A program made the position numbers and the translations under genes. 64,000 nucleotides of DNA, taken from positions 868,001 through 932,000 of the forward strand of contig NZ_QPER01000002.1 in assembly GCF_009455635.1 (NCBI RefSeq), given 5' to 3'. The stretch comes from Paraburkholderia agricolaris (lineage in GTDB: Bacteria > Pseudomonadota > Gammaproteobacteria > Burkholderiales > Burkholderiaceae). Under the pieces are notes generated by a model. It was not told the DNA's origin. It worked only from the letters and a program-made list of their open reading frames with translations, and searched no databases. The first letter of the stretch is position 1. Every line of letters begins with the position of its first letter. Shown piece by piece: positions 13,209 to 58,691 of this stretch.

Positions 13209-13486
13209 GTATCGCACCAGCGGTTATAACTGTTGCGTTCGGCTTCCAATTATTTGTCATACAAATAGATGTGCTACGTCTTTCGCGGGAAAGTTAATCC
13301 TTCTTTATCTCTTAATTCCGCATTTGGGTTTGTCGATCGTGGCAGTGTTCGCTATCGAGCCAATATGGTCGGGCCTCTCTGAAAATAATTTAATCTCGCA
13401 AAGGTTTGCGGGAGATTTAATTTTTCTATTTAATTAATGCTTTCGAAAATCAACCGGATCGAAGTTTATTTCTGCGGCTAACCGGC

Positions 13487-13514
13487 AAAAAAAAGCCGAC
13501 ACATTGTGTCGGCT
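13487..13514 (-). terminator. Intrinsic terminator on the minus strand
   Basis: AGCCGACAC (13494-13502) pairs perfectly with GTGTCGGCT (13506-13514) around 3 nt. On the minus strand the stem is followed by eight T (13487-13494). No annotated minus-strand gene lies upstream of it within 500 bp, so it may end a small RNA. Confidence 0.75.
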
Positions 13515-13580
13515 GAAAAGACTCTGGCGTCCGAGGATTGCATGCCAGAACCTGAGAGACGGTAGTCAGTCAATTTTACG
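13487..13580 (-). ncRNA. Candidate small RNA ending at the intrinsic terminator
   Basis: On the minus strand a TAAAAT hexamer at about 13574-13579 could serve as a -10, with a poor -35. About 90 nt follow, containing a 6-bp stem (13523-13528 with 13544-13549) and then the strong terminator at 13487-13514. The length and architecture are typical of an intergenic sRNA. The evidence is structural only, and the 5' end is a guess. Confidence 0.35.
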
Positions 13581-13770
13581 AATTCAGTACGGGTGGCGGA
13601 CATTTTTGCCGCATGCTTAAATTTAACAATTTCGCGCCGGGTCGTTGCAGAACAAGCTTGTCTTTTTAGATAGACGACTTCGCTGGGGAGAGATCATAAA
13701 CTAAAAGCCTCGGTTGAGCATAAAGGCGTCAAAAAATTTTGTTGATCGGGCGTCACCGAATTCAATGTCA

Positions 13771-13800
13771 GGAAATCCTTACGTTGGCGTAGGGATTTCC
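13771..13800. repeat. 13-bp inverted repeat, 4-nt loop
   Basis: GGAAATCCTTACG and CGTAGGGATTTCC pair over 13 bp (one T-G wobble) around TTGG. No T run follows on either strand. It could be an RNA structure or a protein site of unknown role. Confidence 0.6.
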
Positions 13801-14080
13801 TTGGTTGAATGCTATCTCGTCCTAATAGCGCGTGTTGTGATCGCGTAGTGAGTCAATTGGGCGTTATTACACTGTAGTGGCAAGTCCCGCCGTACTGTAC
13901 TGACTGGTTAGTAACGATACTTTATGAATAGGCGGCCCAGGAAGCATACAGAAAGGCTCATAAGCGCGCTCGTGAAAACACTGCACGGCATATTGACCGC
14001 TTTTAAGTAAGGCCTGAATTCAGCAGGGTCCCTCGCACTGGCGCTATGCTAACGGCTTCGCCTACCTCGAGGAATGACTG

Positions 14081-14788
14081 ATGACACAGACCACAGGATC
14101 GATGATCACGTTTCACCGGCCGGACGGCAAGGAAGTCCAGGGCTATCTGGCGAGGCCGCATAAAGCAGAAGGCGCGCCTGCCATCGTCGTGATTCAGGAG
14201 TGGTGGGGGTTGAACGACCAGATCCGCGGGGTGGCCGACCGTCTCGCGCAAGCCGGCTATCTGGCGCTGGTGCCCGATCTTTACCGCGGCAAATCGACGG
14301 TGGAGGAAGAAGAGGCACACCATCTGATGAGCGGGCTCAATTTCGGCGACGCCGCTACTCAGGACGTGCGGGGCGCTGTCCAGTACCTGAAGCAGCATGC
14401 GGCGAGCGTCGGTGTGACCGGTTATTGCATGGGTGGCGCGCTCACCTGGCTATCGCTATGCAATATCCCGGAGGTGGCGGCCGGCGTGGTGTGGTACGGC
14501 TTTCCGCCGCTCGAATACATCGACGCATCGAAAATCAAGGTTCCTGTTCTTGGTCATTGGGCGACCCAGGACGAGTTCTTCCCGGCAGAGACGGTCGATG
14601 CATTGGAGGCGAAGCTCATCGCAGCCAATGTCGACGTCGAGTTTCATCGCTATCTCGCGCATCACTCGTTCGCTAACGAGACGGCAGTCGGGCCGGGCCG
14701 CATCTCCCGGACCCAGTTTGATCCGGTCTGGGCGCAGCGGGCCTGGGACCGCACCCTGACGTTCTTCGGCCGTACGCTCTGGAAGTGA
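14081..14788 (+). CDS. Dienelactone hydrolase family protein
   Basis: 235 residues of the usual family length, predicted cytoplasmic (no signal peptide). GYCMGGA places the nucleophile Cys116 in the GxCxGG elbow. Asp164 (TQDEFF) and a His at 194-195 (LAHHSFAN) complete the catalytic triad, and Glu40 of VVIQEWWGL is the residue that holds the cysteine in dienelactone hydrolases. The family opens dienelactones in chlorocatechol breakdown, but most members act as broad esterases. No catechol-pathway genes are near, so the substrate is open. Confidence 0.93.
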   Translation: MTQTTGSMITFHRPDGKEVQGYLARPHKAEGAPAIVVIQEWWGLNDQIRGVADRLAQAGYLALVPDLYRGKSTVEEEEAHHLMSGLNFGDAATQDVRGAVQYLKQHAASVGVTGYCMGGALTWLSLCNIPEVAAGVVWYGFPPLEYIDASKIKVPVLGHWATQDEFFPAETVDALEAKLIAANVDVEFHRYLAHHSFANETAVGPGRISRTQFDPVWAQRAWDRTLTFFGRTLWK

Positions 14789-18502: not shown

Positions 18503-19882
18503 GTGACCACGACCCTCGAACAACTGCGCGCCGGACAACTGGCGGGTACCCGCCGACTCACTCTGGCGTGTGGCCTGAGCGAATTTCCACGTGAGATTTT
18601 CGATCTGGCCGACACGCTGGAAATTCTCGATCTGTCGGGTAATGCACTTTCAACGCTGCCCGATGATTTGCCGCGGCTGCGAAAGCTGCGCATCATTTTT
18701 GCCTCTGACAACCGGTTTACTGAATTGCCGGAAGTGCTAGGGCAGTGTTCGCAACTGAGCATGGTCGGTTTCAAGGCCAATCGTATTCGTGAGGTTTCGG
18801 GTAAATCGCTGCCGCCGTTGTTGCGTTGGCTGATCCTCACCGACAACGAGGTCGAAGCCCTGCCGCCTGAAATCGGCGCCTGCTCGCAACTGCAGAAGTT
18901 GATGCTTGCCGGCAACCGGTTGCGCGCATTGCCCGAGGAAATGGCAGCCTGCTCGCGGCTCGAACTGCTGCGTCTCGCGGCGAATCAACTGGACGAACTG
19001 CCCGCGTGGTTGTTGCTCCTGCCGCGGCTTTCGTGGCTGGCGTGCGCCGGCAATCCATTCAGTGAAGCGCTGGCCGCGTCAGCCCTGATCGACACGCCGA
19101 TCGCGGATATTCAATGGAATGCGTTGGAACTTGAAGCGCAGTTAGGCGAGGGTGCGTCCGGTGTCATTTATCGTGCGGCGCTTTCTGCCCGTCATGACGA
19201 GGCGAGCAGGCCGGTGGCCGTCAAATTGTTCAAGGGTGCGGTAACGAGCGACGGATTGCCTGACTGCGAAATGGCGGCCTGCATTCGCGCTGGCGGTCAT
19301 CCGAACCTGATTCCGGTGGTGGGTAAGGTGAAGGACCATCCGGCCGGCGCACATGGCCTGGTGATGGAGCTGATCGATCCGCAGTTCACCAATCTTGCGG
19401 GCCCACCAAGCCTCGAGTCATGCACGCGCGACGCCTATGGTGAAGGCATGCGCTTCGGGTTGGCCTCAGTATTACGTATTGCGTACGGCATTGCGTCGGC
19501 GGCGTGTCATCTGCATCGTCAAGGGGTGATGCATGGCGATCTGTACGCGCACAATATTCTGCACGGCGCTGGCAGTGAGCAGGGGAGCGCATTGCTGGGC
19601 GATTTTGGCGCGGCGTCTTTCCACGTTGCCGATAACCGGGACTTCAGTGATGCGTTGCAACGCATCGAAGTCAGGGCGTATGGTTGTCTGCTCGAGGAAT
19701 TGATCGAGCGATGCGACGGACTGGATGCGAACGTGGATATCGCGGCGAAGCTGGTAGCGTTAAAAGCGCAATGCCTGAGCGAGGACATCGGCAGCCGGCC
19801 GTTGTTCGACGACATCGCTGCCGTTCTGCGGCCGCTATCGGGCGCGGGCGATCGGGACACAGCAGCGTTGGCGGCAGTTTGA
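18503..19882 (+). CDS. Leucine-rich-repeat protein kinase
   Basis: 459 residues from a GTG at 18503. Residues 18-188 hold about seven leucine-rich repeats of the LxxLxLxxNxLxxLP type (for example LEILDLSGNALSTLP and LQKLMLAGNRLRALPEE). Residues 209-450 are a protein kinase domain with a complete catalytic set: glycine loop LGEGASGVIY, Lys241 in VAVKLF, Glu256, HGDLYAHN (Asp346, Asn351) and GDFGAA (Asp367). There is no membrane segment or signal peptide, so it should act in the cytoplasm. It probably phosphorylates Ser/Thr on a partner recognised by the repeats; no substrate can be named. The next gene, 62 nt on, is a periplasmic binding protein. Confidence 0.88.
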   Translation: MTTTLEQLRAGQLAGTRRLTLACGLSEFPREIFDLADTLEILDLSGNALSTLPDDLPRLRKLRIIFASDNRFTELPEVLGQCSQLSMVGFKANRIREVSGKSLPPLLRWLILTDNEVEALPPEIGACSQLQKLMLAGNRLRALPEEMAACSRLELLRLAANQLDELPAWLLLLPRLSWLACAGNPFSEALAASALIDTPIADIQWNALELEAQLGEGASGVIYRAALSARHDEASRPVAVKLFKGAVTSDGLPDCEMAACIRAGGHPNLIPVVGKVKDHPAGAHGLVMELIDPQFTNLAGPPSLESCTRDAYGEGMRFGLASVLRIAYGIASAACHLHRQGVMHGDLYAHNILHGAGSEQGSALLGDFGAASFHVADNRDFSDALQRIEVRAYGCLLEELIERCDGLDANVDIAAKLVALKAQCLSEDIGSRPLFDDIAAVLRPLSGAGDRDTAALAAV

Positions 19883-19944: not shown

Positions 19945-20907
19945 ATGACACAGAGGATGCGCCGCCGCTTGCTGGTTGCCGCCACGCTGGCCTCGGCAGG
20001 CCTGACAGGTACGGCTCGTGTCGATGCAATGCAGGGCGGCAAGCTGAAGATTGCCCTTGTGTTGAAGTCGATGTCCGATCCGTTCACGGTCGCGATGGTG
20101 AACGCTGCGCAGAATTATCAGAAGCACTATGCGTCGCAGTTCGCTTTGACCATTCGGGGAACGGCAACGGAGGGCGATACGGCCGTACAGATCCGAATGG
20201 TCGACGAGCTGATCAAAGCGAGGGTGAATGCGATCGTCATCGCGCCGACTGACTCGAAGGCGTTGACAGCGGTCGTGGCGCGGGGCATCAAGGCGGGCAT
20301 CATCATGATTACCATCGACAACCCGCTTGACGATGCGTTGCAGGATGCCGCTCACATCTCCGTGCCTTTTGTCGGCCCGAATAACCGCAAGGGCGCGAAG
20401 CAGGTGGGCGATTATCTTGCGCAGCGGCTCAAGGCGGGCGATCAGGTCGGGATCATCGAAGGGAGCTCCGCCGACCGCAATGCGCAGCAACGCACGGCCG
20501 GCAGCAAGGACGCGATGAGCGAGGCCGGCATGAAGATCGTCGCCATACAGTCCGGCGACTGGGATTATGCGAAGGGGCGGGACGTCGCGTCTAAGATGTT
20601 GGGAGACTATCCACAGATCCGGGCGCTGATGTGCGGTAACGACAATATGGCCATGGGTGCGGTAGATGCTGTTCGCGATGCGGGGAGAACCGGTGGTGTT
20701 TATGTCACCGGGTATAACGACAGCGATGCGATTAAACCCTTGCTCGCCGACGGCCGCGTGCTCGCGACCATGAATCAGTTTGCCGATCGGCAGGCTGTAT
20801 TCGGTGTCGACGTGGCGTTGAAGGCAGTTACCGAACAGCGAAAGGAAAGTGACTTGTCGCGAGTCATTGAAACGCCGCTGCAACTGGTGACTGGCGCGGG
20901 TCATTGA
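19945..20907 (+). CDS. Periplasmic sugar-binding protein (RbsB-like), orphan
   Basis: 320 residues from the ATG at 19945 behind AAGGAG; a longer frame from 19684 is a shadow of the kinase gene. Residues 1-28 are a signal peptide. The rest matches the type I periplasmic binding fold of the ribose/galactose group: KIALVLKSMSDPFTVAMVNAA, TDSKALTAVVARGIKAGI, TIDNPLDD, EGSSADRNAQQRTAGSKDAM and CGNDNMAMGAVDAVRDAG. No ATPase or permease is near. Binding proteins of this type can also serve chemoreceptors or histidine kinases. Whether it works with the kinase upstream is unknown. Confidence 0.9.
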   Translation: MTQRMRRRLLVAATLASAGLTGTARVDAMQGGKLKIALVLKSMSDPFTVAMVNAAQNYQKHYASQFALTIRGTATEGDTAVQIRMVDELIKARVNAIVIAPTDSKALTAVVARGIKAGIIMITIDNPLDDALQDAAHISVPFVGPNNRKGAKQVGDYLAQRLKAGDQVGIIEGSSADRNAQQRTAGSKDAMSEAGMKIVAIQSGDWDYAKGRDVASKMLGDYPQIRALMCGNDNMAMGAVDAVRDAGRTGGVYVTGYNDSDAIKPLLADGRVLATMNQFADRQAVFGVDVALKAVTEQRKESDLSRVIETPLQLVTGAGH

Positions 20908-21134
20908 GGGTGCGATGCTGGAGTGGGCATCGATTAAAATGAGCCTCAAGCTAAGGATGCCGAATGATATGCCGGTTTACGATTCACATCCATAGCTCGA
21001 CATTATGGGTTGACGGTACGCGTTAGGCGCTTTTCTAACGGTCGTGCCAATCAGCAAAAAGACCGTCTGAATTGTCACTTTTCCGACTCCGATTCTTTTC
21101 GACTAACGACCGTTCCAAAATGACGTTTTGCGGG
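20908..21134. other. Intergenic region upstream of the mgtA promoter
   Basis: Between the orphan binding-protein gene and the predicted mgtA promoter there is no gene I can support. Minus-strand ORFs at 21035-21334 and 21259-21555 overlap the leader and have no recognisable content or ribosome site. Confidence 0.5.
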
Positions 21135-21163
21135 TTGACAGCGACTTTCACGGCAATTACTAT
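21135..21163 (+). promoter_or_regulatory. Sigma-70-type promoter for the mgtA leader
   Basis: A consensus -35 TTGACA at 21135-21140 is followed, after 17 bp, by TACTAT at 21158-21163 (4 of 6 matches to the -10). Transcription would start near 21170, giving a leader of about 780 nt before the mgtA start codon. Confidence 0.6.
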
Positions 21164-21490
21164 TCGTCCGTTCTCACTAAGGGGCCGATGCCTTGGACAG
21201 TAGCAGTAGTCGATCTTCGAACAGTTTGTCTGCCTGACCGACAGGACGCCCGCCTCTTTTAGCCGCCGTCCCGCCAGCAGGCAGGATGGTGCGCGTCGTA
21301 GTTTCGCCGTAGTTTCGCAATACTTCCCCCGCACCGTTTTAGTACCGCGTCGACGCGCGTGATTTCGCTCGTCCGCTTGAAAGACGTCGTGAGCCTGACT
21401 CGCGACGGTGATCGCTCACGCCCGCGCAATTCGTGCAGTGCGTGGTTGAAAAGACATGCTCGTGCAGACAAGCGCGAGAAAGGAGAAATC

Positions 21491-21544
21491 ATGCCCGACA
21501 GTGACTCTTGTCCCTTACGCGATTCAAACTTTCTTTCCGCCTGA
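21491..21544 (+). CDS. 17-codon leader peptide upstream of mgtA (MgtL-like candidate)
   Basis: AAGGAG lies 6 nt upstream of an ATG that opens a 17-codon frame, MPDSDSCPLRDSNFLSA, ending in TGA at 21544. The peptide is acidic and proline-containing in its first eight residues. The enteric mgtA leader peptide MgtL is also 17 codons long and opens with alternating acidic and proline residues that destabilise the ribosome when Mg2+ is low. That similarity is in size, position and composition, not in sequence identity. The reading frame, start signal and position before mgtA are seen directly; the regulatory role is inference. Confidence 0.6.
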   Translation: MPDSDSCPLRDSNFLSA

Positions 21545-21627
21545 AGGAAGTCCACACCGTTCCTCGCCTTTCTCTCGTTGAGCTTTGGCGTCGTGGTGCC
21601 GGCCTTCCAGCCGGCGCACGCGAACGA

Positions 21628-21653
21628 CCTCCGGGCAGCAGCCCGGACGGAGG
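21628..21653 (+). promoter_or_regulatory. Hairpin that can sequester the ribosome site of the second leader ORF
   Basis: CCTCC at 21628-21632 can pair with GGAGG at 21649-21653, and GGGC (21633-21636) with GCCC (21641-21644), around AGCA. An alternative pairs CCGGGC with GCCCGG. GGAGG is the ribosome binding site of the ORF that starts at 21660, so folding would hide it. Confidence 0.5.
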
Positions 21654-21659
21654 AACATC

Positions 21660-21809
21660 ATGCATTTCGCTCTTCTCGTACCCGAGTTGCCTCACATTCG
21701 TGAGGCTCGTGCCCACTACGACTCGCTGCTGACGCTGCGTATCCACGAACATAAAACGCCGACGGCCATTGCCCGTTGGTGGACGGGGTTGTGGAGCCGC
21801 GCGCACTGA
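21660..21809 (+). CDS. 49-residue ORF in the mgtA leader, unknown function
   Basis: The ATG at 21660 has a strong GGAGG six nt upstream and opens 49 codons: MHFALLVPELPHIREARAHY, continuing to an aromatic C-terminus with RWWTGLWSRAH. No signal peptide or family is recognised. The stop is 142 bp before mgtA. Its start region is enclosed in the hairpin at 21628-21653, and an 8-bp hairpin (21819-21840) follows its stop. It may be a second regulatory leader ORF or a small membrane-associated partner of MgtA; the sequence does not decide. Confidence 0.5.
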   Translation: MHFALLVPELPHIREARAHYDSLLTLRIHEHKTPTAIARWWTGLWSRAH

Positions 21810-21818
21810 CGTCGCTGC

Positions 21819-21840
21819 GTGCCGGATAGCGGTCCGGCAC
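21819..21840 (+). promoter_or_regulatory. 8-bp hairpin between leader ORF and mgtA
   Basis: GTGCCGGA (21819-21826) pairs perfectly with TCCGGCAC (21833-21840) around 6 nt. It lies between the 49-codon ORF and mgtA. No T run follows, so a Rho-independent stop is unlikely; an attenuation or pausing role is possible. Confidence 0.45.
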
Positions 21841-21951
21841 GTGCGCGTGCCTGCTCCGTCCTATTCCGGAGTCAGGTCGCGCAACCATAGAAAATCACCT
21901 TGAAAAAAGAAGTGTCGCGGCGGCCATTGGCCGCCCGCCACGGGGAAAACT

Positions 21952-24708
21952 ATGTCCAAGCATTCTTACCGTTCTCATCCGTCCCCGCGTAAGCAGAGGG
22001 GCTTCATTACCACGTCCACCTCCAGCGAGCGCAAGCACTCTGCGCGCATCGTCGCCGAGGCCAACAACAGTATCAACACCACGCTGCTGCATACGCAAAG
22101 CTCGCTGGATGGCCTTGTCGAGGCCGACGCCGAGGAGCGTCTGCATCAGAACGGCCCGAACGAAGTGGCACATGACAAGCCGCCTCACGTCGTCGTGCAA
22201 TTGCTGCTGGCCTTCAAGAATCCGTTCGTGATCGTGCTGCTCGTGCTCGCGGGGATCAGTTACCTGACCGATGTTTACTTTGCCGCCCCGGACGATCGCG
22301 ACTGGACCGGCATCAGCATCCTGCTCACCATGGTGACGGTCAGCAGCCTGCTGCGATTTTTTCAGGAGTACCGCTCAAGCAAGGCCGCTGCGCGACTGAA
22401 ATCGATGGTGCGCACGACCGCAACCGTTGTGCGTCGTGCATCGAAATCGGCGTCGCCGGAAAAGCGCGAAATCGCGATGTCCAGTCTGGTTGTCGGCGAT
22501 ATCGTCAGTCTGCAGGCGGGTGACATGATCCCAGCCGACATCCGGTTGATCCACTCGCGCGACCTGTTTATCAGTCAGGCGGCACTCACCGGCGAAGCGC
22601 TGCCGGTCGAGAAATACGACACGCTTGGCGCCGTGATGGAGAAATCCGCGGATGCCGGTTCGAGCGGTCAGGGCGATCCGCTCGAGTTGGCCAACATCTG
22701 CTTCATGGGCACGAATGTTGTAAGCGGTACGGCGACCGCGGTTGTGGTCGCCACCGGAGCCGACACGTACTTTGGCGCACTCGCGCAGAACGTCACTAGC
22801 CACAAGCGGGTTGAAACCAGTTTCGACCGCGGCGTGAGCAGCGTGTCATGGCTGTTGATCCGTTTCATGCTGGTCATGGTGCCGATCGTATTCATGATCA
22901 ACGGCCTGACGAAGGGCGACTGGCTGTCCGCACTGACATTCGCGCTTGCTGTCGCGGTGGGATTGACGCCCGAGATGCTGCCCATGATCGTATCGGCCAA
23001 TCTTGCGAAAGGGGCCGTTGCAATGGCGCGCCGCAAGGTGGTGGTCAAGCGCCTGAATTCCGTGCAGAACTTCGGCGCAATGGACGTGCTGTGTACCGAC
23101 AAGACCGGGACGCTCACGCAGGACAAGATCATCCTCGAGCACCACCTCGATATTCATGGCGATAAAGACCCGCACATCCTGGAGCTCGCCTGGCTCAACA
23201 GCTTTCACCAGAGCGGGCAAAAGAATCTGATCGACATTGCGGTCGTCAACCACGCGAACCAGGCGGGAACGGCCGTGAAACTGACGCATTACACGAAGGT
23301 CGATGAACTCCCGTTTGATTTCGTCCGGCGGCGTTTGTCGGTGATCGTCGCGCGTGCCGGTGGCGATCAACTGATGGTGTCGAAGGGGGCGGTCGAGGAA
23401 ATGCTGATGGTTTCCACGCATATTCAGGACGGCGACGCGATCCGCGAACTGGGTGCGAAGGAGCGTCAGGACCTGATTGCCCGCTCGCAGGAGTACAACG
23501 AGGATGGCTACCGGGTATTGGTTGTCGCCACCCGCGAGATCCCTCAGGCCGAGGCAAAACTGCAATACAGGACCTTGGATGAAGCCAGACTTGTGGTGCG
23601 CGGATTCCTGACGTTCCTCGATCCGCCGAAAGATTCCGCGGCGCCTGCGATTCGCGCATTGCACGACAACGGCGTCGCCGTGAAGGTGCTGACGGGAGAC
23701 AACCCGATCGTCGCATCGAAGGTTTGCCGGGACGTCGGCCTTGAGCCCGGCACACCGCTGCTCGGACGCGACATCGAACAGATGGACGATGACCGGCTTG
23801 GCGAAGTAGTCGAACGGACGACCGTGTTCGCGAAGCTCGCGCCGCTGCAGAAGGCGCGCGTTGTGAAGGCGCTGCAGGCGAACGGGCACACGGTCGGTTT
23901 CCTCGGCGACGGTATCAATGACGCGCCGGCGCTGCGCGACGCCGACGTGGGGATTTCGGTCGATAGCGGTGCGGACATCGCCAAGGAAACGGCCGACATC
24001 ATCCTGCTCGAGAAGAGCCTGATGGTGCTGGAAGAGGGTGTGATCAAGGGCCGCGAGACGTTCGGCAACATCCTCAAGTATCTGAACATGACGGCGAGTT
24101 CGAACTTCGGCAACGTGTTCTCGGTGCTGGTGGCGAGCGCGTTCTTGCCGTGGGAGCCGATGCTTGCGATGCAGTTGCTGATCCAGAACCTGATCTATGA
24201 CCTGTCGCAGATGTTCCTGCCCTGGGACAAGATGGACCCCGAGTTCCTGAAGAAGCCGCGCAAGTGGGAAGCGGGCAACATTGGGCGCTTCATGGTCTGG
24301 CTTGGGCCGACGTCCTCGGTGTTCGATATTACGACCTACTTCCTGATGTGGAGCGTATTCGGCGCGGGTGCGTTGTATCACCTGCACGGCGGAAACGGTG
24401 GCCAGATCATCATGAATTCAGGCTGGTTCGTTGAAGGTCTCGTGTCCCAGACGCTCGTCGTGCACATGCTGCGTACGCAGAAGATCCCGTTCCTGCAGAG
24501 CACGGCAGCGCTGCCCGTGCTGCTGTCGACTTTCACCGCGATCGCGGTCGGCTGCTGGCTGCCGTTCTCGCCACTGGCTGACACGTTCGGCTTCACGGCG
24601 TTGGCTCCGAGCTATTGGGGCTGGTTTATCGCCACGATGGTGGGCTACATGATGCTCACTCAGGTCGTCAAAACGGTCTACATCCGCCGCTATGGGCGGT
24701 GGTACTGA
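21952..24708 (+). CDS. mgtA: Magnesium-translocating P-type ATPase
   Basis: 918 residues, the length of MgtA/MgtB. P-type ATPase signatures are complete: the phosphorylated Asp383 in CTDKTGTLTQDK, the actuator-domain TGE of ALTGEALPVEKYD, VLTGDNPIVASKVC, and the hinge FLGDGINDAPALRDADVGIS. GLTPEMLPMIVSANL in the membrane domain matches the Mg2+ (P3B) group. The ten-helix membrane domain ends with the paired segments around residues 760-910. It imports Mg2+ across the inner membrane at low external Mg2+. The long N-terminal extension (residues 1-50, Ser- and Arg-rich) is typical of Burkholderia MgtA. The 780-nt leader suggests RNA-level control. Confidence 0.97.
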   Translation: MSKHSYRSHPSPRKQRGFITTSTSSERKHSARIVAEANNSINTTLLHTQSSLDGLVEADAEERLHQNGPNEVAHDKPPHVVVQLLLAFKNPFVIVLLVLAGISYLTDVYFAAPDDRDWTGISILLTMVTVSSLLRFFQEYRSSKAAARLKSMVRTTATVVRRASKSASPEKREIAMSSLVVGDIVSLQAGDMIPADIRLIHSRDLFISQAALTGEALPVEKYDTLGAVMEKSADAGSSGQGDPLELANICFMGTNVVSGTATAVVVATGADTYFGALAQNVTSHKRVETSFDRGVSSVSWLLIRFMLVMVPIVFMINGLTKGDWLSALTFALAVAVGLTPEMLPMIVSANLAKGAVAMARRKVVVKRLNSVQNFGAMDVLCTDKTGTLTQDKIILEHHLDIHGDKDPHILELAWLNSFHQSGQKNLIDIAVVNHANQAGTAVKLTHYTKVDELPFDFVRRRLSVIVARAGGDQLMVSKGAVEEMLMVSTHIQDGDAIRELGAKERQDLIARSQEYNEDGYRVLVVATREIPQAEAKLQYRTLDEARLVVRGFLTFLDPPKDSAAPAIRALHDNGVAVKVLTGDNPIVASKVCRDVGLEPGTPLLGRDIEQMDDDRLGEVVERTTVFAKLAPLQKARVVKALQANGHTVGFLGDGINDAPALRDADVGISVDSGADIAKETADIILLEKSLMVLEEGVIKGRETFGNILKYLNMTASSNFGNVFSVLVASAFLPWEPMLAMQLLIQNLIYDLSQMFLPWDKMDPEFLKKPRKWEAGNIGRFMVWLGPTSSVFDITTYFLMWSVFGAGALYHLHGGNGGQIIMNSGWFVEGLVSQTLVVHMLRTQKIPFLQSTAALPVLLSTFTAIAVGCWLPFSPLADTFGFTALAPSYWGWFIATMVGYMMLTQVVKTVYIRRYGRWY

Positions 24709-57872: not shown

Positions 57873-58166
57873 CCGCAAGAAGGGGGCGCACAGGAGGGGG
57901 GGCTGAACAACCGCCACGGCGCGCGCAGCGCCGCCGGAAGTATGACTGCCTTGTCACTGAGGCGGAATGTGCGAGAACACAGATTCCAGATGCACCACTA
58001 CCCCCTCAAGCCAGGGGACCCGCTTATGAGCTGGCGGTGTAAAGCCGCTTTCTTTTGCCTACTTTTCTTTGCGGCAGGCAAAGAAAAGTAGGTGCCGCCC
58101 CGCACAGGGGCAACGCTAATAGACCGCTAACACAACAAGGAAAGGCCAAAAACCCAAAGACGCGAG
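57873..58166. other. Intergenic region with repeated Burkholderia hairpin
   Basis: 294 bp between the AraC gene and the minus-strand YdjM-type gene, with no gene. It holds the perfect 15-bp inverted repeat listed at 58058-58092. Confidence 0.6.
58058..58092. repeat. Burkholderia-type intergenic palindromic repeat
   Basis: CCTACTTTTCTTTGC (58058-58072) pairs perfectly with 58078-58092 around GGCAG, followed by GTGCCGCCCCGCACAGGGG. This hairpin and its flank are familiar to me as a sequence found many times between genes in Burkholderia and Paraburkholderia. It lies between convergent genes, where it may act as a terminator. Confidence 0.8.
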
Positions 58167-58691
58167 TCAAAGCCACCCCCATCCCCGCAAAACCGAAACC
58201 CCGAGCATTCCGTGCACCCCATGCACCCAAACATGCTCCCCAACAAAGAAAGCCGCGACCCACGAAGCCGCAACAACAATCAAATCACAGTGCCCACTAT
58301 TCCAGAGCTTCAATGAGTGCCGCCCGGCGACCCACGGCACACCAAGCGGATTAGGCCAATCGGCCAGCAAATGCATCAACCCACCGCAAGCAAACCCGAA
58401 CCCCGGCGCAGCATAACCAGACCGCCCAAGCCAGTGATAAGAAACCACAAGCAACGCGACCCACCCCACCCCCCAATGCGTCAACGTACGATGGGTGATC
58501 CACAGTCTTCGTGCGCGTGACCACCACGCCACTTCCAGCCAGTCCGGCGCCGTACTCCCGGCCACCCCGGCGATGAAACTCAACAGCACGCCGATATGAA
58601 ACGAGCCGCCGCCACCGACGCGCGCGACGACCGCCGCCGCGATAACGCCGGCCGCGAATCCGGTCGCGTGATGTGCTTTGCTGGATGCCAT
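58167..58691 (-). CDS. YdjM-like membrane protein (metal-dependent hydrolase family)
   Basis: 174 residues with four or five membrane segments. MASSKAHHATGFAAG is the N-terminus of the YdjM group (paired His), and SRARRLWITHRTLTHWGVGW carries the HRxxTH motif that may hold a metal at the membrane surface. GFACGGLMHLLADWPNPLGVPW follows (GLMHLLADWPNPLG). The family includes inner-membrane phospholipase-like or LexA-regulated proteins of unclear role. It is single and convergent with the AraC gene. Confidence 0.85.
   Translation of the reverse strand: MASSKAHHATGFAAGVIAAAVVARVGGGGSFHIGVLLSFIAGVAGSTAPDWLEVAWWSRARRLWITHRTLTHWGVGWVALLVVSYHWLGRSGYAAPGFGFACGGLMHLLADWPNPLGVPWVAGRHSLKLWNSGHCDLIVVAASWVAAFFVGEHVWVHGVHGMLGVSVLRGWGWL

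Follow-up and report, generated by a model that had tools for sequence, protein, structure and literature searches.

The mgtA leader and its parts

The window analysed here, a stretch of 64,000 nucleotides of the Paraburkholderia agricolaris genome, carries a gene for a P-type ATPase behind a long leader. The product of the gene matches NCBIfam TIGR01524 with 1281.6 bits (cut-off 610.75) and has 8uy7, a Mg-transporting ATPase, as its best solved relative (E 2.3e-281): the gene is a true mgtA, as the preliminary description had it. The other features named there are present too: a TTGACA promoter, a leader of about 780 nucleotides (counted from the predicted transcription start to the mgtA start at 21952) and a 17-codon ORF (ATG at 21491, stop codon ending at 21544, AAGGAG ahead), which is referred to as uORF2 below. 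Two further parts of the leader are a conserved element with an upstream ORF of its own (uORF1; 21162-21302) and a third ORF (uORF3; 21660-21809), and the order from 5' to 3' is promoter, conserved element (uORF1 and hairpin), uORF2, uORF3 and mgtA:

21135..21163, plus strand: promoter TTGACA-17-TACTAT, from a promoter search
21162..21302, plus strand: conserved element, defined by BLASTN and a covariance model in relatives, with no Rfam match
21179..21184, plus strand: Shine-Dalgarno-like AAGGGG of uORF1, 8 nt ahead of the uORF1 start
21193..21237, plus strand: putative uORF1, UUG start, 14 codons LDSSSSRSSNSLSA and UGA, based on start codon swaps in relatives
21240..21248, plus strand: strand 1, directly behind the uORF1 stop, with partial complementarity to strand 2; pairing weak here (GGACG with CGUCC)
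21264..21291, plus strand: predicted hairpin 2:3 (CGCCGUCCCGCC-AGCA-GGCAGGAUGGUG)
21480..21485, plus strand: Shine-Dalgarno AAGGAG of uORF2, 5 nt to the start
21491..21544, plus strand: uORF2, 17 codons MPDSDSCPLRDSNFLSA, based on the ORF and on conservation tests
21660..21809, plus strand: uORF3, 49 codons MHFALLVPELPHIREARAHYDS... behind GGAGGAACATC, based on the ORF, its conservation and pN/pS
21952..24708, plus strand: mgtA, Mg2+-translocating P-type ATPase, based on NCBIfam, solved-structure and Pfam matches

The TTGACA box lies at 21135-21140 and is followed, after a spacer of 17 nt, by TACTAT ending at 21163; together the two boxes agree with the consensus at 10 of 12 positions, and the region 20900-22100 has one promoter site versus a mean of 0.3 in shuffled sequences. 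Three stretches are invariant across 30 aligned loci: TTGAC of the promoter, GGGGC in front of uORF1 and GCCTTGGA. An intrinsic terminator (a GC hairpin followed by a U run) was not found on the plus strand of 20900-22100 in this window; the one terminator candidate of that region is on the minus strand, versus 1.2 expected.

Copies of the element and the genes behind them

When positions 21000-21951 were compared by BLASTN to 146 genomes (the own genome included), 77 genomes had matches with E<=0.001, often more than one per genome. Nearly all of these matches correspond to window positions 21162-21302; two of the 77 genomes match elsewhere in the leader, by 28 bases alone. After 100 further stretches had been fetched, a set of 131 distinct copies of the element with at least 60 bits was assembled for the genus, without 7 weaker matches and 2 duplicates; alignments are based on 66 or 48 chosen representatives. 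The element is highly conserved, with 42 invariant columns in 48 sequences. By covariance-model test, the leader belongs to none of the described RNA families: cmscan found no Rfam match for 21100-21960 at E<=10 and none on the element in the 20 loci that were searched at E<=0.1. This includes the M-box (ykoK) and yybP-ykoY families, for which there was no match in the window and none on the element in the 20 loci (E<=0.1).

The genes behind the 131 copies were classified by BLASTP to four reference proteins. Sixty loci have an Nramp-related gene, 38 a gene for an ABC permease or ATPase (33 permease, one permease and ATPase, four ATPase) and four have mgtA; the remaining 29 are unclassed, and some of these reach contig ends. 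The preliminary description had treated the device as one that belongs to mgtA, and this could not be upheld, with 4 of 131 copies in front of mgtA and 60 in front of an Nramp-related gene. MgtC-type genes follow the element at +366 (L126) and +430 (L127); in L058 and L087 they are found about 1.7 kb downstream, where the linkage is less sure (Pfam was run on L058 alone). Other targets, according to Pfam, are a cation efflux protein (L034), a HlyD-type protein (L055), a lipocalin-like protein (L096) and an Hfq-like protein near L113, and by eye a TonB-type protein (L071); the HlyD-type, Hfq-like, lipocalin-like and TonB-type targets are without known Mg2+ role.

The reverse question is how many genes of each class have an element. 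Covariance model R1 identified 84 elements in 37 of 41 genomes (E<=0.001), and a gene was counted as linked if an element was present on the same strand within 1.5 kb upstream. Almost all Nramp-related genes of at least 500 codons have one (30 of 31, or 31 of 34 when fragments are included). The element is upstream of mgtC in 16 of 37 cases, of mgtA in one of four, and of ABC permease matches in 14 of 62, several of these matches being fragments at contig ends. For 22 of the 84 elements, there is no Nramp-related, mgtC, ABC permease or mgtA gene within 1.5 kb.

The genome of the window itself has the element in front of mgtA, in front of an Nramp-related gene (C2:843756) and in front of mgtC (C2:2306183). 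A fourth match (L163) is weak, lacks uORF1 and has no Mg2+ gene in the stretch examined. The closest solved chain to the Nramp protein (L050) is the Mg2+ transporter EleNRMT (7qia, E 2.5e-49), followed by 10ky (2.3e-17), and the best chain named MntH has an E-value of 9e-13. Helix 6 of EleNRMT, the protein of entry 7QIA, is described as carrying Thr, Ala and Trp (PMC8806188); the L050 protein has the same Thr and Ala there, with Trp in place of the first His (GTTVAPWQLFF aligned over GTTIAPWMMFF of 7qia), as members of the NRMT clade do. This comparison was made for one protein, L050, and all other Nramp targets were assigned by BLASTP to Nramp references.

Several arrangements of the copies stand out. 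Some genomes have two similar ABC permease copies, one with element and one without (e.g. G000:C1:3606152-3607897). The ABC operons with L213 and L215 contain permease and ATPase together, with no binding-protein gene recognised by eye, and the L045 ATPase carries an AAA_assoc_C domain. Elements can also be paired back-to-back, divergent and a few hundred bases apart (L055, L071, and G004:C150:312-1071 and 13440-14200); in L055 and L071 such pairs precede RND-type or, by eye, TonB-type genes, and in G004 genes that could be assigned to no class. In L122, a divergent element precedes what appears to be only the end of an MgtC-type frame, perhaps a decayed mgtC.

The uORF1-hairpin core is also present in other families of the Burkholderiales; uORF2 and uORF3 come behind it in the Burkholderia group. 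R1 matched 31 of 399 genomes of the order at E<=0.01, two of them from the genus of the window; E-values of R1 are rough and the weakest matches may be due to chance. Among 28 loci that were inspected, several precede genes that are by eye of the Nramp, mgtA or ABC type. An exact pattern of the element matched 37 contigs of named records, among them Paraburkholderia, Burkholderia, Trinickia, Pararobbsia, Duganella, Sulfuriferula, Chitinimonas and a Rhodocyclaceae bin. Eighteen of the 37 records, with 19 matches, were examined more closely, and BLASTP identified an mgtA, MgtC, Nramp or ABC gene downstream of 17 of the 19.

The upstream ORFs and the pairing of the element

To count uORF2 without use of its motif, ATG or GTG ORFs of 12-45 codons with a ribosome site and a start between +220 and +560 were collected from the 131 leaders (a first search had used the motif and thus forced the acidic residues). 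There are 160 such ORFs on the forward strand, and 109 of these, from 109 of the 131 loci, have an acidic pair, defined as two acidic residues adjacent or one apart within codons 2-6. Controls gave one of 51 ORFs on the reverse strand and none of 90 in five shuffles (18 ORFs each). The other 51 forward ORFs are, with three exceptions, uORF3 shortened by the 620-base piece. The 131 loci are related and the counts are not independent.

The conservation is concentrated at the start of the peptide. Among 105 distinct peptides, of 16 to 42 codons, the entropy is 0.89, 0.32, 1.07, 0.75 and 1.10 bits at codons 2-6, 2.01 at codon 7, 0.76 at codon 8 and more than 2.1 at codons 9-17. Conservation is strongest at codon 3, an acidic residue; proline is found at codon 2 in 83 and at codon 8 in 93 of the 105 peptides. 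For codons 2-8 of 65 distinct sequences, pN/pS is 0.48 versus 0.99 and 1.00 in the other frames; this sample was preselected by the acidic pair, and it is the counts that rest on the motif-free search. The peptides of the four mgtA leaders are MPDSDSCPLRDSNFLSA, MPEGDSCPLPPSSFSSA, MPDSDRWPLRRSSFFA and MPDSEIWPLRHSRFYFA. The preliminary description had made its proposal dependent on conservation of the frame in related species, with the acidic and proline codons kept against drift elsewhere, and this is the pattern seen: 109 of 131 homologous leaders have an ORF led by a ribosome site with early acidic codons, and codons 2-6 and 8 are conserved where later ones drift.

In 22 of the 131 loci, uORF2 was not found by the motif-free test, and a few of these were recovered by other criteria. 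It was not found in the eight MgtC-type loci that were examined (L058, L087, L126, L127, L133, L162, L178 and L187). uORF2 is not the most widespread part of the leader: MgtC genes and several other families have the uORF1-hairpin core with no uORF2 detected. Outside the genus, peptides similar to uORF2 precede Nramp-like genes (VNDSDSCPL, MPDPEPSHHRR, MPDPDGSRSR, MDPYPIRPV, and MPSDSCRCDC and MPSDNDRCPC with a further MDPYPSSAV); in many of the outside leaders examined before mgtA- or Nramp-like genes, no such peptide was found. In locus L043, a single element is followed by a pair of peptides similar to uORF2, MPDSDSYPLCPSRLNFPEESK and MPDSDSHPIRRLSLPVIEGSS, and then by a protein with a heavy-metal-associated domain.

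For uORF1, start codons are exchanged at one site. With the first base left free, 127 of the 131 genus copies have TTG, two GTG and one ATG (one copy could not be anchored), and 38 pattern matches have TTG (28) or GTG (10). Outside the genus, 34 distinct sequences (with T, G or A alone allowed as first base) have TTG in 17, GTG in 13 and ATG in 4 cases, and many of them read M-D-S-x-S-S-R-S. Because of these start-site swaps and the spacing to the ribosome site, the UUG frame is the one that we prefer for uORF1. Tests of pN/pS do not separate the frames, neither overall (0.67, 0.70 and 0.88) nor outside the genus (0.80, 0.82 and 0.71).

A second frame of this region, frame A (MPWTVAVVDLRTV..., ATG at 21188), seemed coding at first, with silent-looking changes, and was rejected. 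Its pN/pS in the genus is 0.69, with frame B at 0.51 and the third frame at 1.32; 40 of the 131 copies have ACG in place of its start codon, and among ten GTG-type sequences L191 alone has a frame A start codon at most 8 nt upstream.

Could the uORFs be attenuator peptides that sense charged tRNA, for serine in the case of uORF1 and for proline or cysteine in the case of uORF2? There is precedent, as MgtP of Salmonella is described to respond to charged tRNA-Pro (PMC8092293), uORF1 is serine-rich (MDSSSSRSSNS) and the prolines at codons 2 and 8 of uORF2 are frequent. We nevertheless regard this as very improbable: in some copies cysteine, proline or threonine codons stand where others have the serine codons of uORF1, the best-conserved residue of uORF2 is acidic, and many targets are Mg2+ genes rather than amino-acid genes.

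Right behind uORF1, the element contains three strands that suggest a switch: strand 2 (CGUCCUGCC) has two possible partners, strand 1 (GGCAGGACG, directly behind the stop of uORF1) and strand 3 (GGCAGACGG). Over 48 sequences of the genus, 93.3% of cells are paired for 1:2 and 98.4% for 2:3, with at most 63.4% when the strands are slid. Covariation within the genus is thin, with one pair changed on both sides for 1:2 and two for 2:3, and the 1:2 pairing of the window itself is weak, as 88 of 300 shuffles are equally good. An earlier pairing test, with no more than 15 of 300 shuffles equally good as its limit, was passed by 16 of 22 sequences chosen from the genus and by 16 of another 41 (a set with a few genus members). 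An automatic test of 1:2, which misplaced the hairpin in several sequences, gave p<=0.05 in one of ten genus sequences and for 9 of the 19 lineage labels, among them the mgtC copy of the own genome; the combined p for the 19 lineages, with related lineages treated as independent, is 1.4e-7. Several GTG-type sequences have GGCAAGGUA as strand 1, facing UACCUUGCC, with the paired stretch starting 8 bases before the stop codon of uORF1. The alternative pairing is suggestive only.

An element as conserved at the nucleotide level as this one might also be a riboswitch that binds Mg2+ (or Mn2+) directly, with uORF1 an accident of the conserved sequence, and both the 42 invariant columns and the failure of pN/pS to single out the uORF1 frame would fit. 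The interchange of TTG, GTG and ATG at the uORF1 start site speaks against it. Furthermore, RNAalifold on 66 elements predicts a single hairpin plus a small stem located at the ribosome site, both with few covarying pairs, and no multi-helix aptamer was found in this consensus folding; uORF2 would be left unexplained. A directly binding riboswitch thus appears unlikely.

The start motif of uORF3 is found in 97 of the 131 loci. Codons 2-25 have a pN/pS of 0.52 in 63 alignable sequences, versus 1.03 and 1.56 in the other frames, and the later part varies in sequence and length. No family was found in Pfam or NCBIfam, and a protein search returned two proteins only, 98% and 88% identical. uORF3 accompanies different transporters and was not found before MgtC genes. 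In L113, L116 and L119, uORF3 (in L113 and L116 also uORF2) is followed by small genes and no transporter. It is conceivable that uORF3 encodes a functional small protein that acts on the transporter, with uORF1 and uORF2 merely keeping the leader translated. The frequency and coding signal of uORF3, and its co-occurrence with different transporters, are in favour; the lack of a Pfam or NCBIfam family, the variable later part and the MgtC loci are against, and we consider it a rather slim possibility. Such a function of uORF3 does not exclude the explanation that we think best, a switch at low Mg2+, with which it is compatible.

A putative Mg2+ switch and known leaders

We think it reasonably probable that the mgtA leader is one copy of a cis-regulatory device of the Burkholderiales for Mg2+ genes and that this device is a low-Mg2+ switch like MgtL and MgtQ. 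The leader family, with one to three tiny genes, would probably sense low Mg2+ through stumbling ribosomes. The Mg2+ response, the drop-off of ribosomes and the involvement of Rho are inferred. At ample Mg2+, the uORFs would be translated to the end, and a ribosome at the stop codon of uORF1 would cover strand 1; hairpin 2:3 could then form and the transcript would be aborted or kept silent, probably via Rho. Rho is proposed because no intrinsic terminator was seen on the plus strand: with no U-run terminator there, Rho or a control at the level of translation would be needed for the rest. At low Mg2+, ribosomes would drop at the acidic and proline codons, at codons 2-8 of uORF2 and perhaps at Asp2 of uORF1, the RNA would refold and transcription would reach the transporter gene. 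The induction by drop-off is suggested by the precedents of MgtL and MgtQ and by the early acidic motif of uORF2.

The MgtL peptide has 17 codons. Ribosomes become unstable on its acidic and proline codons (EPDP), and mgtA is controlled in this way (PMC11282234, PMC11552253); the mgtA leader of E. coli has two mutually exclusive folds, as described in PMC11552253. The stalling motif given in PMC11282234, acidic residues near the start of the peptide that are neighbours or separated by one position, is what uORF2 conserves. Like MgtL, uORF2 is a short ORF in front of mgtA with acidic and proline residues among its first codons, which are conserved there and not later (109 of 131 loci). The acidic residues are at codons 3 and 5 here, versus Glu2 and Asp4 in MgtL (PMC11282234). 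In contrast to MgtL, the leader has three uORFs and no Rfam match, and it is also found before Nramp-related, ABC and mgtC genes. The proposal of the 17-codon ORF as the switch of an mgtA leader holds in part: the early acidic codons and the largely Mg2+-related targets argue for it, and uORF2 is the second of three uORFs.

MgtQ of Salmonella is an 8-codon ORF between mgtC and mgtB, with Asp2 and Glu5, and is described with a switch between 1:2/3:4 and 2:3 pairing (PMC8092293). Asp2 and the 1/2/3 layout with the ribosome on region 1 are shared with what we propose for uORF1 (PMC8092293). The difference is that MgtQ is part of an operon and makes the mgtB ribosome site accessible (PMC8092293), whereas uORF1 is at the 5' end of the leader, distant from the gene. 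Judged by analogy, the leader works like MgtL and MgtQ in anatomy; with a peptide of only 17 codons, the likeness to MgtL may be convergent or very old.

Genes for Nramp-related Mg2+ transporters are elsewhere under M-box control (PMC4072509). The kind of target gene is thus the same, but the M-box combines an aptamer and an intrinsic terminator, and the genomes in which it precedes such genes are mostly those of Clostridia and Deltaproteobacteria (PMC4072509). Among the literature matches listed, none describes the leader as judged by title and start of abstract; most subscription journals were outside our reach.

In a wider reading, much of the Mg2+ stimulon of the Burkholderiales (Nramp-related transporter, MgtA, MgtC and ABC importer) would be a cis-regulon, formed by copies of one leader, with tandem destabilising peptides and a new class of RNA attenuator as the sensor; sensing of Mg2+ by ribosome instability on acidic codons would then have arisen, or been retained, in bacteria far from the enterics. 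We regard this as possible, at somewhat less than even chances. If true, the ABC importer would be a candidate for a new Mg2+-linked transporter. Sensing of Mg2+ by ribosome instability on acidic and proline codons is described for enteric leaders (PMC11282234, PMC11552253, PMC8092293); the same peptide logic in front of different Mg2+ genes of one genome, with an order-wide core, would show this logic to be general. The leader family would also supply many natural peptide variants for comparison, and its motif would point annotators to Mg2+ genes, the ABC importer included.

Two features of the window lie outside the leader. At the gathering cut-off, the sole cmscan match of the whole window is an unrelated sRNA, the Burkholderia sRNA candidate Bp1_684 of Rfam (58082-58178, plus strand; 44.3 bits, cut-off 44). 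Upstream of the leader, at 18503-19882 of the plus strand, there is an ORF with, by eye, leucine-rich repeats followed by a protein-kinase domain.
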